NCBI GenBank assembly: GCA_017519305.1
Contig: JAFWSN010000002.1
Span: 124,001-188,000, forward strand
Origin: Candidatus Saccharimonadota bacterium
GTDB lineage: Bacteria; Patescibacteriota; Saccharimonadia; Saccharimonadales; Saccharimonadaceae
Reading direction: 5' to 3'
DNA length: 64,000 nucleotides
Shown here: piece after piece, positions 17,410 through 36,720 of the stretch
How the letters are laid out: every line of letters starts with the position of its first letter
Position numbering within the stretch: the stretch's first letter is position 1
The notes under the pieces: generated by a model
Databases searched by the model: none
What the model was told of the DNA's origin: nothing
The model's input: the letters and a program-made list of their open reading frames with translations, nothing else
Made by a program: the position numbers and the translations under genes

Positions 17410-18344
17410 TTTTTCTCCTTATCGTTCAATTTGGTTCGCACTACATAGAGCGGGCGCTCTTTGACCTGGACGAAAATATTACCAACGTATAAGCCGACGA
17501 TACCAATAACTGATATATTGATACCGCCGATTAGGCAAATCGTAGTAATAATACTGACCCAGCCAGAAAGCTGTGGCTCAAAGAAGATATGGACAATGAT
17601 TAGGGCAATAATCGCTAGGAGGGACAGGAAGCTTAGCATGATGCCGAATTTCACAATCAGGCGCAAGAACTTATCCGATTGTGACAACAAAATTTCAGAT
17701 GCGAGTTTGAGACGTTTCTTGAAGCTATAGGAGCTTTTGCCAGATTTACGTGGAGCATGTTCTACTGCGACGGCCGTTTGTTTAAAGCCTAACCACTGCA
17801 GATACATTACGAAAGCACGATGTTCCTCGCGCATCTTACAATAAGCTTCAATCACATTTTTCCTAGCCATGCAGAAATTGCAGAGTTCCGGATCGTATTT
17901 CTGACCAACGGCAAAACTATAGAATTTGTAGAACAATTTAGCGATAAAGATTTTGCGTTTTTTATCTTTGCGTGAAGCACGCTTCGCAAATACAACGTCG
18001 TAGCCATCTTCTATTTTTTCTAACAACTTAGGAATTTCTTCTGGTTTGTCCTGTAAATCACAGTCCATCACAACTACATAATCGCCGGTTGCATTATCAA
18101 GACCAGCAAGTATGGCTTTCATTTGACCAAAATTTCTAGACAATTCAATGCCGACGATCTTCTTGTTGGCGGCACAAAGCTCTTCGATAACCTCCCATGA
18201 GTTCTGTGGGCAGGAATCATTTACTAGAATGATCTCATATTCTTTAGAGATAGAAGTCAGGGTTTTTTCGAGCCGTTCGCAAAGCTCTTTAAGTGCGGCT
18301 CGGCAACCATAAACTGGTATAACTACGGATATTTTTTTACTCAT
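17406..18344 (-). CDS. GT2 polyprenyl-phosphate glycosyltransferase, GtrB/DPM1-like
   Basis: The 312-residue protein has a GT2 catalytic domain (SVVIPVYG at the start, DYVVVMDCDLQDKPEEIPKL, then FVMYLQWLGF) and two C-terminal membrane helices. This is the architecture of GtrB/ArnC/YkoT enzymes, which transfer a sugar to undecaprenyl phosphate. It probably makes the lipid-linked sugar that the small DMT pair could flip. It overlaps the downstream SDR by 4 bp and the upstream fusion gene by 8 bp. Confidence 0.87.
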   Translation of the reverse strand: MSKKISVVIPVYGCRAALKELCERLEKTLTSISKEYEIILVNDSCPQNSWEVIEELCAANKKIVGIELSRNFGQMKAILAGLDNATGDYVVVMDCDLQDKPEEIPKLLEKIEDGYDVVFAKRASRKDKKRKIFIAKLFYKFYSFAVGQKYDPELCNFCMARKNVIEAYCKMREEHRAFVMYLQWLGFKQTAVAVEHAPRKSGKSSYSFKKRLKLASEILLSQSDKFLRLIVKFGIMLSFLSLLAIIALIIVHIFFEPQLSGWVSIITTICLIGGINISVIGIVGLYVGNIFVQVKERPLYVVRTKLNDKEKK

Positions 18345-20490
18345 TTAGGAGGGCCTCCTTTATCTTATTCGCGATATTTTTTGAATCTGTACGATAAATA
18401 GCGAAGCCCATGCGTGTACCACTGTCGGTCACAGCATGGTCAAACTTGTCGATTTTGCTCATGAAGTATAAGTAATCCGGATTAGCCGCATTGAGCTCCT
18501 GAATTTTCTTAAGATCATCTGGTGACAAAACAAATTTTACGATCGCAAAATTCGTTTCTGGCTCCGGAAGCTCCAGCTGATTGCCGGCGGCTACATCGAT
18601 AACCATTTTGACAAAGTCGTTTCCGGTAGAAAGTTTGACTAAATCTGAGCCAATACAGTCGCCACCCATACGAGCTCCGATTTCGATAATGCCAAAGTTG
18701 CCATCTTTGTCTACCTTAAATTCGGTGTGACTAGCGCTGTTTTTAACTCCCAAAGCATCAAGTGCTTTAAAAATCTCTTCTTTGATACTAGCTTGTAATT
18801 CTTCTGGGATGTCCGACGGTTCGGCGTGGCCAGTTTCTATAAAATGCGGGGAACCAGTGGTGTATTTTTTTGTAAAGGCAAGGAAATGATGCTTGCCGTT
18901 TTGGGTAATACATTCACAGCTATATTCGTCGCCATCGATGAACTCTTCAATGATTGCACAGTGTTCAAACGATTCTTTGGCGGCAACTTCTACAGCAGCT
19001 TCAATTCCGTCCATCCCCATCAATTTGGTGATACCACGAGAACCAGAACGGTCTGTTGGTTTCACGATTACTGGAAAATTAAAATCTTTTAGAATATCGG
19101 CAAAGTTGGTTTCGTCCGCCTGCACCTTTACGAATTTCGGAGCCTTAACGCCATTTTTTACGAAAGCTTCTCGCATTGCATACTTGTTGGTGCACTGCTC
19201 GGAAATTGCCACTGGATTACCTGGAAGACCAAGCTCCTCGGCTACATAATTTACGGTCAATGTAGCTAGATCGGATGCAATAGTACAAATTGCTACTGGG
19301 CTAATCTCGCGACATTTTTCAAGAATTGCTTCCTTTTCGACGATGCTAATAGGGTAGAAATAATCAGCTGTGCGCTCGCCGATGCTTCCATCTTGCCATG
19401 CGAAAACATGAGTCTCGTATCCTAGAGCATTGGCTTTCATGATGAGTTTGTTCTGAAAATCATTGGCCCCCACAACTGCGATTTTTGGTGGTTTATAATC
19501 TGAGCGATATGCGCCGGACTCGATATTCTTGATCCAATCAACGTGCGATTGATACCAGGCCACCGTTTCTTTAATACCTGATTCAAAATCGTGAGTAGGT
19601 TGCCAACCAAGCTCTTGTTCAACCTTAGAAGAGTCGGTAGCGTAACGCAAATCATGTCCTGGGCGATCGGCGACAAACTCAATCAAAGATTCTGGTTTGC
19701 CAAGCTCTTTCAATACGGTTTTTACAACTTCTAGGTTGCTACGTTCGGAGTGGCCACCAAGATTATATACTTCGCCATCGCGGCCATGGCGCACAATCAT
19801 ATCAACACCAACGTTGTGATCGTAGACATGAATCCAATCACGAACATTCTCACCCTTGCCGTAAACTGGAATTTTTTCGTTGTTTAAGGCGCGGCTAATG
19901 ATTACCGGGATTAATTTTTCAGGGAACTGATAAGGACCATAGTTGTTTGAACAGCGAGAAATAGTTACGGGTAATCCAAAAGTCCTAGCATAAGCGAGCA
20001 CCTCAAGGTCTGCGCTTGCTTTTGATGCCGAGTATGGACTAGATGCATGAATTGGTGTTTGTTCAGTAAATAATAAATCTGGGCGATCGAGTGGCAAATC
20101 GCCGTAAACCTCATCCGTAGAAACCTGGTGGAAACGAACAATGCCATACTTGCGGGCCGCATTCATCAAATTCATCGTGCCGAGTACGTTGGTCTTTGCG
20201 AATACATTTGGATCTTTGATGGAATTATCTACGTGTGATTCGGCTGCGAAGTTAATCACGTAATCAAAACGTTCAACATCAAAAAGGCCATCAATAAAAT
20301 CATCATTTCTAATATCACCTTTTACGAAACGAAAATTTGGCTTATCTTCCAAATCTTTAATATTGTTGTAATTGCCGGCATACGTCAGGGCATCAAGACA
20401 AACAAACATGTCTTCTGGATATTTCTCTGTAACGTAATGCATGTAGTTGCTGCCGATGAAACCGGCACCACCAGTAACTAAAAATTTCAT
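18337..20490 (-). CDS. RmlB (dTDP-glucose 4,6-dehydratase) fused to an ATP-grasp enzyme
   Basis: Residues 1-~330 are a complete RmlB: GGAGFIG at 7-13, STDEVYG near 124-130 and YSASK at 153-157, the full catalytic set for converting dTDP-glucose to dTDP-4-keto-6-deoxyglucose. Residues ~335-717 form an ATP-grasp domain of the biotin-carboxylase/carbamoyl-phosphate-synthase type: a pre-ATP-grasp fold ([18 protein letters not shown]), an ATP-binding lid ([16 protein letters not shown]), and GDEYSCECI and [16 protein letters not shown] near the metal site. ATP-grasp ligases join a carboxylate to an amine, so the second half might acylate the amino sugar made by the WecE-like enzyme (inference). 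There is no frameshift or internal start evidence for two genes. Confidence 0.88.
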
Positions 20491-25917: not shown

Positions 25918-26127
25918 TTATTTTTTCTTCTCTACGACGATATCGTCTGACTCGACTTCTTTGTTCTTGTTTTCGTCAACGCCAAGTTTTTTGTTAACTT
26001 TCTTTTTGGCTTTACGGAAATACAAGCCAACGAAAGCACCAACAGCAATAATAATACCCGCCCCAGCTTGGATTGCATAGGTCATGACCGATGGGTCGAT
26101 ATAGCCAAATGTTGTGAAAATGTTCAT
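25918..26127 (-). CDS. small single-helix membrane protein
   Basis: The 69-residue protein has one hydrophobic helix (AIQAGAGIIIAVGAFVGLYF, residues ~18-37) followed by a charged tail ending VVEKKK. The ATG overlaps the stop of the YidC-transferase fusion by 4 bp, so translational coupling is likely. I do not know a family. Its tail and position suggest a small accessory subunit of the export or transferase machinery, but nothing shows it directly. Confidence 0.6.
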   Translation of the reverse strand: MNIFTTFGYIDPSVMTYAIQAGAGIIIAVGAFVGLYFRKAKKKVNKKLGVDENKNKEVESDDIVVEKKK

Positions 26128-28022
26128 TTTTTCTTCCTTTCTTTAATTTTATTTTGAACACACTCAATAATATACTCAGCACCGATTCCTGCCGACTTAC
26201 CAAGATTATAAACCGAATCTTTCTTGATTGCAGCAATTTGCTTCTGATACTTAGCTGGGTTCTTTAGCATTTTTTCTACTACGTCACCCATTTTATTTAC
26301 ATCTTTTACCTTTACGACCTCGCCGATAATATCGCGAATCCAAATGTTGATTGGGTCAACATCAATCTTTTTGTAATCCGGGTTCATAATTTTCATCGGG
26401 GTGTCGATCGAGATAACTGGTTTTTCGGTGGTGAAAGCATACTCGAGACCGATACTAGACCAGTCCGTAATCAAAAGGTCAGCATTGAATACAGAGTCGG
26501 TAGAAGAGAAATCTGTTTGAATCGTGATATTGGTCCCGGCATACTGTTCTTTCATTTTTTCGAAAGCATCACGCATATGACGGACATGCTGTGGATGTGG
26601 GCGTACGATTACGTCATAAGACTTACCGGACAAAGCTTTTAGGACCTTATCGAGACAAAGGTCAATAATATTATCTTTTTGCCATGAAGGGGCAATCATG
26701 ATGGTTTTTTTCTTGGACTCTGGCTTCTTTGACTTTTTGTAATCACGAATCATGTCGTCAAGCAAAGTATAGCCCCAGTCGATGATTTTGCGATCTTTCA
26801 AGCCGTAAACCTCGTTGGTCTTTTCGTATTCTTCGCGTTGGTATTTACCGGTAGCAAACACTGAGTCGTAGTGATCAGTCGAGCTTTTGCGCATCGTCAT
26901 GTTGAGACTATCGATGCAGTGCGGAACGTAAATGTATTCAATATCTTTTCTGATATAGCTACGTTTAATATGGAAGTTATTAATGTCTGGCATCGTCATT
27001 ACTACGACATCGGCATCCATTTTCATCATTAAAGTAATGAGTTTTTTCTCTTCAATATAATATGGTTTAATCTTACTCTCAGTTTTAGCCAGTTCAAAAA
27101 TCTGGTCATTGTAATCACTTGTAATGTAATGAATAGTCAAATTGGTATTTTTGAGAATATACTCAATCATGCCTTTGTAATATTTATAGAAACCACTACT
27201 TTCTGAATAAAACACCAAGTGTTTGTTGACGATAGAGAAGAAGCGCTTATAATCAGCTTTTTCTTTACGGATTTGCTCTACTGTGCGTTTGCGATTTTTA
27301 TTAATCTCTTGAAGTTCCTTCAGTTCTTTGCGGGACTCGTCGAGAGCTTTATAGTCGACATGTTTTTTCGGGTTGATAAAAATATTGAGTAGCCATTGCT
27401 GAACAACAGCAAACAAGTTGCTAGCGGTCCAATAAAGAGCCACACCGGCCGTTACGAATGTACCAAGATAAAGCGACAAGCCAACAGACAGAATCAACAT
27501 ACCATATTTGTTAGCCTTAGACTGTTCGGCCTGCAAAACATTCATAATATTTTGGCCAACACAAAGTACCAAGGCGGATAAACCAGCGATTACCGGGATC
27601 CAGATGGCCATTCCACCATTTTCGGAGGCAATCCAAGACAAATCAAAGCCGAAAAAATTCATATCGATATTTTCAACACCAATATAGAGACTTGGGTTCT
27701 TTACGATTTCTACCACACCAAGCAACAATGCAATTTGTGCAATTAGCGGGACCAGGGAAGCAAGCGGATTATATTTATATTTTTTGTAAATTTTTGATTC
27801 TTCTTCAGCAATCGTATCTTTATCGCCAAAGTATTTTGCCTTCAAACGATTGATTTCTGGCTGCATTTTAACCATCTTAATAGAATTCTTTTGTACCCAA
27901 ATTGAAATTGGCAAAAGAATAATTTTACTCACTAAAGTAAATAAGATAATTGCCCAGCCGTAGTTGCCAACGACGCTGTAACAACCCTTCATAATCCAGC
28001 CGAGAAAATCAACAAAAATCAT
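26124..28022 (-). CDS. fusion of a YidC/Oxa1-like membrane domain and a CDP-glycerol glycerophosphotransferase-like domain
   Basis: Residues 1-~220 match the YidC core: a first helix with a basic groove residue (FTLVSKIILLPISI), the cytoplasmic hairpin with QPEINRLKAKYFGDK, and the last helices (ALYWTASNLFAVVQQ). Residues ~260-632 match TagF/TagB-type transferases, with RPHPQHVRHM and TDWSSIGLEYAF. Those enzymes move glycerol-phosphate (or ribitol-phosphate) from CDP-glycerol to teichoic-acid chains. Here the membrane domain could anchor the transferase or help pass a product. A charged linker (~221-260) joins them. Start ATG 28022 overlaps the sulfatase-like gene by 4 bp. Confidence 0.88.
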   Translation of the reverse strand: MIFVDFLGWIMKGCYSVVGNYGWAIILFTLVSKIILLPISIWVQKNSIKMVKMQPEINRLKAKYFGDKDTIAEEESKIYKKYKYNPLASLVPLIAQIALLLGVVEIVKNPSLYIGVENIDMNFFGFDLSWIASENGGMAIWIPVIAGLSALVLCVGQNIMNVLQAEQSKANKYGMLILSVGLSLYLGTFVTAGVALYWTASNLFAVVQQWLLNIFINPKKHVDYKALDESRKELKELQEINKNRKRTVEQIRKEKADYKRFFSIVNKHLVFYSESSGFYKYYKGMIEYILKNTNLTIHYITSDYNDQIFELAKTESKIKPYYIEEKKLITLMMKMDADVVVMTMPDINNFHIKRSYIRKDIEYIYVPHCIDSLNMTMRKSSTDHYDSVFATGKYQREEYEKTNEVYGLKDRKIIDWGYTLLDDMIRDYKKSKKPESKKKTIMIAPSWQKDNIIDLCLDKVLKALSGKSYDVIVRPHPQHVRHMRDAFEKMKEQYAGTNITIQTDFSSTDSVFNADLLITDWSSIGLEYAFTTEKPVISIDTPMKIMNPDYKKIDVDPINIWIRDIIGEVVKVKDVNKMGDVVEKMLKNPAKYQKQIAAIKKDSVYNLGKSAGIGAEYIIECVQNKIKERKKK

Positions 28023-33048: not shown

Positions 33049-33077
33049 TTGTTGGGCTATTTCGTGTATGCTACACT
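33049..33077 (+). promoter_or_regulatory. promoter of the MurI-like gene
   Basis: TTGTTG at 33049-33054 and TACACT at 33072-33077 are separated by 17 bp, with TG one base before the -10. The transcript would carry a GGAGG Shine-Dalgarno ahead of the ATG at 33104. Confidence 0.55.
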
Positions 33078-33103
33078 TTCTTCTGGTGGAGGGGAAAGAA
33101 GAA

Positions 33104-33754
33104 ATGAACCACATTGTCGTTTTCGATAGTGGCTATGGTGGCGAACTCTTCGCCGACTACATCGAAAAGGAAGTACCTATATTGGAGACCGTGCGAGTTA
33201 TCGATTGGCAACAGTCTCAGCAACTTTATCAAAATCCTAAAACAGCCCGAGCTAAAACCCTAGAGAAACTCAGGCCCTACATTAATCACTCTAAAATTAT
33301 TGTTATCACTAACCAGCTAGTCTCAACTACTAGCCTTGAATATTTTCGTAAAAAATACCCCAGTCAGAAGTTTTCTGGCTTTTCTTTTGGCCAAGTACCA
33401 AAAACCAACGCTAAGCACGCGCTTATTCTCACTACTAAAGCAATGCGAAAAACCCTCGCGTATCATAAATTCGTCTATCATCTAAAACTCCGCTCGCAAG
33501 AATTCGATTGCGACGAATGGATCGACCTTATCAACGCGGGCGAATATATGGAAGAAACCGTCGCTCGTGACCTTGCTCAGTTTAAAAGGTGGAAACCCGG
33601 CGTCATTATTCTTGGCGACTCTCATCTCGCAGACGTCAAACCGATTTTGAGAGATTTTTATGGCCCCACCGTCGCCATCGTGGATGGCTACAAAACCGCA
33701 CTAAAAAACCTTTGTCATGAACTCGGCATCCGTGGCGGGACTGGCAAAAAGTAG
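33104..33754 (+). CDS. glutamate-racemase (MurI)-like protein lacking both catalytic cysteines
   Basis: The 216-residue protein begins MNHIVVFDSGYGGELFADYI, matching the MurI N terminus with DSGxGG. Where MurI has ACNTA the sequence reads VITNQLVSTTS, and where it has LGCTHYP it reads LGDSHLADVKP. Thus neither cysteine needed for alpha-proton exchange is present. The overall length is ~50 residues less than usual (~265). It may be an inactive paralogue with a binding or regulatory role, or use other chemistry. Start 33104 has GGAGG upstream; an in-frame ATG at 33068 overlaps the -10 and is less likely. Confidence 0.7.
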   Translation: MNHIVVFDSGYGGELFADYIEKEVPILETVRVIDWQQSQQLYQNPKTARAKTLEKLRPYINHSKIIVITNQLVSTTSLEYFRKKYPSQKFSGFSFGQVPKTNAKHALILTTKAMRKTLAYHKFVYHLKLRSQEFDCDEWIDLINAGEYMEETVARDLAQFKRWKPGVIILGDSHLADVKPILRDFYGPTVAIVDGYKTALKNLCHELGIRGGTGKK

Positions 33755-33766
33755 CCTGCTTACCCC

Positions 33767-33803
33767 TTGAAAAATCTCCAAACTACGTGTATAATATACA
33801 CGT
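33767..33803 (+). promoter_or_regulatory. uvrA promoter with palindromic operator-like site
   Basis: TTGAAA (33767-33772) and TATAAT (33790-33795) are 17 bp apart. The -10 sits inside a perfect inverted repeat ACGTGTATA-A-TATACACGT at 33785-33803, a candidate repressor operator. Confidence 0.7.
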
Positions 33804-33819: not shown

Positions 33820-36720
33820 ATGACAAAAGAAGACGTCTTCAACGACGGTGGTTTTATTAAAGTTCGCGGCGCCCGCGAGAACAATCTGAAAGATCTTGAT
33901 GTCGACATCCCGCGCGACAAACTCGTGGTAGTGACCGGTCTTTCTGGCTCTGGTAAATCCAGCCTTGCTTTTGATACCATCTACGCCGAAGGTCAACGCC
34001 GTTATGTCGAATCGCTCAGCTCTTACGCCCGTATGTTCCTTGGCGTGATGGATAAACCAGATGTCGATTCCATTACTGGTCTCAGCCCGGCCATTTCTAT
34101 TGATCAAAAATCAACCAGCCGCAACCCACGTTCTACCGTAGCTACGGTCACCGAAATTTATGATTATCTCCGTCTTTTGTTCGCTCGCGTCGGCGTGCCG
34201 CATTGTCCAGTTTGTAAAAAAGAAGTCTCTCGTCGCTCGGTCGAAGACATCGTAAATGAAGTGATGAAGCTTCCACTTGGTTCCAAATTGATGCTTCTCG
34301 CCCCAATTGTTTCACAGAAAAAAGGTGAGTTTGCCCACATCAGCGAACAATACGGCTCCAAAGGTTTTGCTCGCGTTCGCGTGGATGGCATTGTCTACGC
34401 TCTAGATGAATTTCCAGAACTCAACAAGAACGAACGTCACGATATCGAACTTGTTGTCGATCGTTTCATTCTTAGCCCAGATCTTTATTCTCGTATTTCC
34501 GGTTCTATCGAACAGGCACTCGAACTCGGTCAGGGAATTATCAAACTTCTCAAAATCAATGATACTTCTACTGCTGTAGGCGAGAAAAATATTAATGCCG
34601 ACAACACCGAAGTCCTCACCTATTCTCAGCGTTACGCCTGTGAGGACCACCCAGACGAACTTATCCCAGAACTCAGCCCACGCCTCTTCTCATTCAACGC
34701 TCCAGAAGGTGCTTGTCCTACTTGTACCGGTCTTGGTACCCGCATGGAAATTGATCCGGACCTCGTTTTTAACAACAACCTTACTATTGCCGAAGGTGGT
34801 ATTCGACCATTCAACCGCGTCAATCAAGATTCATGGTGGCTCAAACGCTTGATGTGTGTTGGCGCCAAACACAATTTTTCTGTCCACGTGCCAATCGGTG
34901 AGCTTTCCGAAGAGACCAAACACCTCATTCTCTACGGTACGGGTGACGAAAAATATAAGATGAAAATCATGGGCTCCGGCCGCTTTGCCGACGGCACCAT
35001 CTACGAAGCCACTTACGAAGGCGTTATCCCGATGCTCGAGCGTCGCTATAACGATCCAAAAGTTTCCGATTTTACCAAGCACGATATCGAACGTTTCATG
35101 CGCGTGCACGAATGCCAAACTTGTCACGGCGCCAGATTAAAACCGGCCGTACTTGCTGTCACTGTCCACGGCCTCAATATTGTCGACATGTGCCAAATGG
35201 ATGTCGATGCTACTTACGAAGTTCTCGGCCAAGACCTCGGCTTCTCCGATTCCGAAAAACTCATTGCTGAGCCAATCTTAAAAGAAATCCGCGAACGCAT
35301 TAAATTTATGAAAGACGTCGGCCTCGGCTATCTCGAACTTGGTCGTGCCGCCAACACTCTTTCTGGTGGTGAAGCCCAGCGTATTCGCCTCGCTACCCAG
35401 ATCGGTTCCGGTCTCCAAGGCGTGTTGTATGTTTTGGATGAGCCGTCTATCGGTCTTCACCAGCGCGATAACGATAAACTTATCGCTACATTGAAACATC
35501 TTCGCGATCTTAGAAACACCGTTTTAGTTGTTGAACACGATGAAGACACTATGCTTTCATCTGACTACATTATTGATATTGGCCCAGGCGCCGGTACTCA
35601 TGGTGGTCAGTTAGTTGCCGCCGGTACGCCGGAAGAAATCATGAAAAACCCAGATTCTCTTACCGGTAAATATCTCAGTGGGGAACTTAAAATCGAAACT
35701 CCAAAGAAACGCCGCAAAGTCAAAGCCGGTCACGAACTAGTCGTTCGTAATGCGCGTGAAAATAACCTCAAAAATATCGATGCCCACTTCCCACTTGGCG
35801 TAATGACCGTAGTTTCTGGTGTCTCTGGCTCTGGTAAATCTACGCTCGTTAACGGTATCTTGGCTAACGAACTTCTCGCTCGCCTCCACCGTGCCCAGAC
35901 TGTTTCTGGCGCTCACGACAATATCGAGGGTATCGAGAAAATCAACAAAGCCATCATTATTGATCAGTCACCGATCGGTCGCACCCCACGCTCCAACCCA
36001 GCCACTTATACTGGCGTATTCAATCATATTCGCGATCTTTTCGCTGCTCAGCCGGAAGCTGAAATTCGTGGCTACAAAGCTGGCCGTTTCTCATTCAACG
36101 TTAAAGGCGGCCGCTGTGAAAACTGTCAGGGTGACGGCGTCAACAAAATCGAAATGCATTTCTTGCCAGACGTCTATGTCACTTGTCCAGCTTGCCATGG
36201 TAAACGTTACAACCATGAAGCTCTCGAAATCAAATATAAAGGCAAAGATATTTCCGAAGTTCTCAACATGACCATCGACGAAGCTGTGGAATTCTTCAAA
36301 AACATTCCATCTATCGCGCCAAAACTTAAGACCATTCAAGACGTTGGTCTTGGCTATATCCGTCTTGGTCAGCCAGCTACCACTTTTTCAGGCGGGGAAG
36401 CACAGCGCATCAAGCTCGCTACCGAGCTCGCTCGTCGCAGTACTGGTAAAACTCTCTACATTCTCGATGAACCAACCACCGGTCTTCATACCGACGACGT
36501 TAAGCGTTTGCTCAAGATTTTGAATAAACTCGTCGACGGCGGCAACTCAATGATTATTATCGAGCATAATCTTCATGTTATTAAATCTGCCGACTGGATT
36601 ATCGATATGGGCCCAGAAGGTGGTATTAAGGGCGGCCAAATCATCGCCGAAGGCACGCCGGAACAACTCGCCAAATCTGCCAAGACTCCAACCGGCGAAT
36701 ATCTCAAACAAGTTTTATAA
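33820..36720 (+). CDS. uvrA: excinuclease ABC subunit A
   Basis: The 966-residue protein is full-length UvrA with two ABC modules. They are Walker [10 protein letters not shown] near residue 45 and [10 protein letters not shown] near 670, ABC signatures LSGGEAQRI and FSGGEAQRI, and Walker B segments LYVLDEPS and [12 protein letters not shown]. Zinc sites include CENCQGDG...CPACHGKRY. In the first site the usual CxxC knuckle reads CEDH, with CPTC intact. UvrA recognises bulky DNA lesions for nucleotide excision repair with UvrB. ATG 33820 has GGAG at 33811-33814. It overlaps the convergent methyltransferase gene by 6 bp. Confidence 0.97.

Follow-up and report, generated by a model that had tools for sequence, protein, structure and literature searches.

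What has become of a glutamate racemase that carries neither of the cysteines on which its family depends? MurI chemistry uses two opposed thiols, and in the window analysed here (a stretch of 64,000 nucleotides from a Candidatus Saccharimonadota bacterium) we observed a MurI-derived gene, on the forward strand between 33104 and 33754 (216 a.a. plus stop), whose product lacks both catalytic cysteines; the assignment draws on profile, phmmer, structure and dN/dS comparisons. An alternative start codon is possible at 33068, but homology starts only at 33104, and a likely ribosome-binding site (GGAGGGG, 33088..33094 on the forward strand, recognised by eye and unscored) lies 9 nt 5' of the ATG.

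The relationship to MurI, which a sequence-only reading had proposed from the start of the protein (DSGYGGE is indeed present), is backed by the TIGR00067 model, by phmmer and by the predicted structure. TIGR00067 (glutamate racemase MurI) matches the window protein with 34 bits (E-value 2e-8) and its curated cut-off of 146.65 is not reached; the native MurI of L257, which is intact, does not reach it either (112 bits), so that the cut-off is strict for this phylum. Using phmmer, the window protein matches MurI proteins of Listeria, B. anthracis and S. aureus in PDB with E-values from 1.2e-5 to 1.6e-4. The profile of the Asp/Glu racemase superfamily (PF01177) does not match the window protein and weakly matches three of the seven members of A1, our seven-sequence profile of the variant (best E-value 0.0035); the fold of the window protein matches the superfamily. 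The AlphaFold2 model, for which 55 related sequences were the input, has a mean pLDDT of 91.8 and a pTM of 0.88. Its best Foldseek match is the Listeria MurI (3ist, E-value 5.2e-10), and its best match by VIA-align is the E. coli MurI (2jfn, Z 22.8, rmsd 2.3 over 208 aligned residues), which ranks above aspartate, allantoin and hydantoin racemases. As the model matches MurI throughout, the fold is that of MurI, and the profile, phmmer and structure matches rule out a chance resemblance. Models of anti-phage defence gave no match. Native-type MurI activity in the phylum appears to have been published (Penalver et al. 2024, cited in PMC11974145); a full-text literature search of partial coverage returned no title or abstract opening that mentions a cysteine-less MurI or the MurI of this clade.

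The gene is under strong purifying selection and is maintained. The window gene and its relative L072 (94% identity) differ with a dS of 0.61 and a dN/dS of 0.053, the comparison with L073 gives a dN/dS of 0.087 at a dS near saturation (1.49), and the median dN/dS is 0.046 over 11 pairs (synonymous difference 0.03 to 0.6). That we are looking at a decaying pseudogene on its way out is hardly credible: fast divergence between species (mostly 33–47% identity to the window protein within the clade) and absence from some genomes would fit such a gene, but the invariant residues are present in 81/81 clade members (the window plus 80 GTDB loci), and the intact frame together with a dN/dS of about 0.05 rules out decay, a pseudogene and a frameshift.

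Both catalytic positions can be read in an ungapped register. The window sequence IVITNQLVSTTSLEYF lies over the native IVIACNTATAAAIEYL, which places Asn70 (codon 33311..33313, forward strand) at the first catalytic cysteine (Cys1, the ACNT motif), and ILGDSHL lies over the native VLGCTHY, which places Asp172 (codon 33617..33619, forward strand) at the second (Cys2, the GCTH motif). Native MurI of other genera in the family has Cys in 57 out of 58 proteins at each of the two columns, and the two-cysteine MurI of the same genus has both in 36/36 (33 of which were chosen for containing both motifs). In the alignment of the 81 clade members, the Cys1 column holds Asn in 80 and Ser in one; residue 172, however, is Cys in 64, Ser in six, Asp in three, His in three, Gly in two, Ala in one and Asn in one (and a gap in one). 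The claim that both cysteines are replaced thus holds for the window protein but not as a rule of the family, and the replacement is conserved in relatives at Cys1 only, Cys2 being replaced in 16 members. On deeper branches the Cys1 column holds Ser, Gly, Asp or Glu, and Cys1 is gone in every member read. Cys2 switched between Cys and non-Cys at least 10 times among the 80 rows of the core tree, which was built quickly and with the column of residue 172 left in (L148, which ends at its contig end, was excluded from it). Since Cys1 is replaced in 81/81 and Cys2 has been lost repeatedly, the loss of Cys1 is the defining event: it lies on the stem of the clade and is fixed as Asn in the core clade, and loss of Cys2 came later and more than once.

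Other cysteines do not stand in for the missing pair. The window protein has two, C136 and C204, neither at a catalytic column; Cys is found at these two positions in nine and 49 of the 81 members, respectively. The C136 column corresponds to a non-catalytic cysteine of native MurI (Cys in 49 out of 58), and Cys is not among the commonest native residues in the C204 column. Cysteines at the active positions elsewhere in the chain, the finding that would have spoken against the sequence-only reading, are therefore absent. Nor was a second intact murI found in the genome itself (97% complete), in which TIGR00067 matches this locus only and a PF01177 profile search gave no matches.

Loss of the thiols is accompanied by other changes. 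The DSGYGGE motif (residues 8–14, 33125..33145, forward strand) has D8, G10, G12, G13 and E14 in 81/81 members, and RVIDW (residues 31–35, 33194..33208, forward strand) has R31, I33 and W35 in 81/81, residues that are not usual in native MurI. Gains invariant across the clade are R31, I33, W35, E14 and D18; the losses relative to native MurI are PYG, Asn71, Thr72 and Thr114. The PYG loop of MurI has a role in substrate binding; it follows the RVIDW position in 58/58 native MurI proteins and is missing from the window protein and nearly all of the core clade. Position 144, Glu in native MurI, is Asp in 78 of the 81 members, and the native His at 174 is mostly Gln (60 Gln and 14 His). Features shared by variant and native MurI are the fold, DSGxGG (D8, G10, G12 and G13), the Ala before Cys1, T111, W139, I143, the order of secondary-structure elements and descent, whereas the variant differs in that both catalytic cysteines (in the window), the PYG loop, Thr114 and Glu144 are replaced and in that it has R31/I33/W35 and a basic C-terminal tail of its own. 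This tail (RGGTGKK, 33731..33751, forward strand; residues 214–216 predicted to be unstructured, with pLDDT below 50) is a frequent property of the variants: at least three Lys/Arg in the last 10 residues are seen in 77 out of 80 variants, as compared with 17 out of 58 native MurI proteins and 16 out of 33 two-cysteine MurI proteins of the genus. Positions with at least 90% conservation are modestly enriched after the ends of cleft-lining strands (14/40 vs 31/176, one-sided p 0.016, with the cleft set chosen by us as five residues from each strand end). In a subgroup of variants (L227, L228, L230, L231, L232 and L237), the second catalytic region is preceded by an insert that is many tens of residues long.

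The phylogeny points to one origin. In a tree of 130 rows rooted by midpoint, the 34 variants form one clade (support 100/100) whose stem measures 2.18 changes per site, and this clade sits in a set of 64 rows (96/96), the remaining 30 of which are native Saccharibacterial MurI; given the long stem, the exact placement within the native set is unsure. The 36 two-cysteine MurI proteins of the genus fall together with E. coli MurI (99/99), apart from the variants, and YgeA, which we take to be the L-Asp/Glu-specific racemase EcL-DER of E. coli, is far from the variants (branch 5.83). L256 and L257, from another genus of the same family, keep both cysteines and PYG, yet have VVFD and VID as in the variants. 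The departure from MurI is real, conserved and of single origin, and from the tree the variant clade appears to have arisen within native two-cysteine Saccharibacterial MurI. On the simplest account, the native gene took on a new role at the root of the genus, part of which carries a second MurI of different ancestry. Examples of genomes of the genus with this other two-cysteine MurI are L053, L054 and L182–L211, which suggests horizontal replacement. The second, E. coli-like MurI can also be part of a fusion with MurD, as in L245 (2583-4520, forward strand), where one ORF of 645 a.a. exceeds the cut-offs of both TIGR00067 (165.8 bits) and TIGR01087 (267.3 bits).

The variant (an A1 match with an E-value of 2.9e-59 or better, counted manually) was found in no fewer than 102 of the 174 genomes searched from the window's Saccharibacteria genus (Nanosyncoccus-like); at an E-value of 0.01 or better A1 matches 147 of the 174, some of these matches being two-cysteine MurI. 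According to GTDB, the hosts are Candidatus Saccharibacteria, many from the ruminant gut, and include one Candidatus Nanosyncoccus alces. When 392 genomes of the order were scanned, the strong A1 matches (E-value below 1e-34) among those listed were confined to this genus. (The 80 loci and the 174 genomes overlap, with identical tree rows, so that counts from the two sets are not additive.) TIGR00067 exceeds its cut-off in 55 of the 174 genomes and gives strong but split matches in five more (60 in total). Cross-tabulated, 39 genomes have both proteins, 63 have the variant only (including the window's genome), 21 the two-cysteine MurI only and 51 neither (23 of the 51 having a weaker A1 match); for the 84 genomes that are at least 95% complete, these numbers are 21, 31, 11 and 21, respectively. 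The idea that the variant complements a lost MurI was rejected, as the presence of one is not associated with that of the other (174 genomes, Fisher p 0.26), and the 39 genomes with both indicate that the variant is not merely a substitute.

A quite improbable alternative is that the variant racemises glutamate slowly by means of non-thiol residues and supplies D-glutamate to the genomes that have the variant only. These 63 genomes lack a two-cysteine MurI, yet murD is present in 174/174 genomes of the genus (above the cut-off in 162) and Aminotran_4 (Dat) in 0/174. Furthermore, an unbalanced pair (Thr83/Cys197) is described as working one-way in EcL-DER, which shares with the variant the Asp/Glu racemase fold and an asymmetric catalytic pair (PMC12661438); the corresponding pair is Asn/Cys in most clade members and Asn70/Asp172 in the window, and T69 of the window protein lies one residue before the Cys1 column, so that no Thr/Cys pair is formed. 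The same paper gives figures that argue against this alternative: in OpaE, a MurI relative, 4.8% of the wild-type activity is left in C90S and no more than 0.3% in C199S. The hypothesis that Cys2 is kept only where MurI is missing was also rejected (retention 11/12 vs 20/22 by presence of the two-cysteine MurI, p 1.0, 34 genomes), and this equal retention speaks against slow racemisation as well. Finally, the 51 genomes with neither type of MurI (23 with the weaker relative) still have murD, so another source of D-glutamate must exist.

Retention of Cys2 bears on a second alternative. That 64/81 members keep Cys2 suggests a continuing importance of its chemistry for most of the clade, and the protein could still be catalytically active, using acid/base chemistry from one side only (decarboxylation, elimination or protonation in one direction), in which residue 172 (Cys, Asp, His or Ser) would donate the proton and Asn70 would bind the substrate. 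Arylmalonate decarboxylase, which has Gly74/Cys188 and a dioxyanion hole (PMC12576825), likewise keeps only the second cysteine, although the window protein differs from it in that the second cysteine is also gone and position 1 is Asn instead of Gly. This enzyme is not named among the PDB matches listed for Foldseek and VIA-align, which excludes nothing. A one-sided enzyme would agree with the replacement of Cys1 by Asn in 80/81 members while Cys2 largely stays, with Ser, Asp, His or Asn (protic or polar) in 13 of the 16 Cys2 replacements, and with the conservation of D8, T111 and D144. However, residue 172 can also be Gly, Ala or Asn and Cys2 was lost many times, which is unusual for a catalytic acid, and Gln mostly takes the place of the usual His at 174. 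We regard such an enzyme as rather unlikely.

A third alternative, with which the new and conserved basic tail of the variants would agree, is that the sole activity retained would be inhibition of DNA gyrase, as reported for the MurI of E. coli, B. subtilis and mycobacteria. Gyrase inhibition by MurI is reported to be uncoupled from racemisation (PMC10886550), although the proteins concerned are active racemases and inhibition by E. coli MurI occurs when UDP-MurNAc-L-Ala is present. The match of one out of 55 members to an NCBIfam GyrA model is weak and probably due to chance. As the sole remaining function, gyrase inhibition seems improbable.

Genomic contexts of the variant genes are informative, although the sequence-only reading saw no obvious clue in the neighbourhood: the setting of the window is atypical, and 60 of 80 loci have thrS within six genes of the variant, mostly with the variant upstream of thrS-miaA. 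thrS is directly 3' of the variant in 36 loci (median gap 54.5 bp), and at L093 thrS and miaA are confirmed by models. No such thrS block was seen near native MurI of other genera within the flanks covered, which reach at most about 3 kb per side. By comparison, the window gene has GtrA and glycosyltransferase genes upstream and uvrA (33820-36720) downstream, a setting confined to a small sublineage; the location of the gene has changed in the lineage of the window. A promoter-like site before uvrA (33767..33795, forward strand) weakly suggests that uvrA may not depend on the transcript of the variant gene, but two promoter-like sites against 2.1 expected are not above chance. On the reverse strand of the window, an ORF of 632 a.a. 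(26124-28022) combines a YidC-type insertase domain (PF02096) with a CDP-glycerol glycerophosphotransferase domain (PF04464).

Taken as a whole, the evidence favours a re-purposed MurI that is probably a cleft-binding pseudoenzyme, whose role may be binding, sensing or regulation of a partner. The gene would be the orthologue of native Saccharibacterial MurI, and its change of role a single event at the root of the genus. Neither thiol is present in the window protein, and on established chemistry two-thiol racemisation is excluded; glutamate racemisation by the MurI mechanism should not be possible, in agreement with the sequence-only view of a MurI-like protein without the cysteines on which glutamate racemase depends. 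The repeated loss of Cys2 argues that thiol chemistry is not needed, whereas its retention in most members counts against a pseudoenzyme. Several retained and new invariant residues (D8, D34-W35, N70, T111, W139 and D144) sit where the cleft-lining strands of MurI end, or close by, and the protein would most likely still bind a ligand between its two lobes, either a small acidic molecule or a precursor of peptidoglycan. Regulation of DNA gyrase would be one concrete candidate for such a pseudoenzyme.

The wider D-amino-acid context of the genus is unusual. No genome out of 174 has a match to Alr (TIGR00492) or a match above the cut-off to Ddl (TIGR01205; partial matches in 21), and PF00842 (Alr C-terminal) is found in 19 of 151 genomes of the family, none of them in the window's genus; searches with Alr, Dat and Ddl models could miss distant or unusual enzymes. 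The partial Ddl match of the window's genome is an ORF of 717 a.a. (18337-20490 of the window, reverse strand) with a stretch like the ligase part of the Ddl model; its N-terminus has what we presume to be a sugar-nucleotide dehydratase-like motif, and it is probably an ATP-grasp fusion rather than Ddl. A genus-wide loss of D-amino-acid synthesis is possible on these profile searches. MurD is kept with no recognisable D-glutamate maker in most genomes and no Alr match, which suggests that D-amino acids or pieces of cell wall come from elsewhere.

More tentatively, the variants may represent a new class of proteins derived from an ancestral glutamate racemase in a genus of gut Saccharibacteria, in which Asn is fixed at the Cys1 position, the cleft is redesigned (R31/W35/D144) and a basic tail is present. 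Such proteins might either catalyse a one-sided reaction of some acid or sense cell-wall precursors derived from the host. The cells concerned have apparently lost any recognisable Alr, Dat and Ddl and, for the most part, a two-cysteine MurI, but they keep MurD. The clade offers a traceable case in which an essential cell-wall enzyme lost a catalytic residue on one branch and has since been retained under strong selection across a genus, and the presence of MurD without a recognisable D-glutamate-making enzyme in most of these genomes bears on the epibiont lifestyle.
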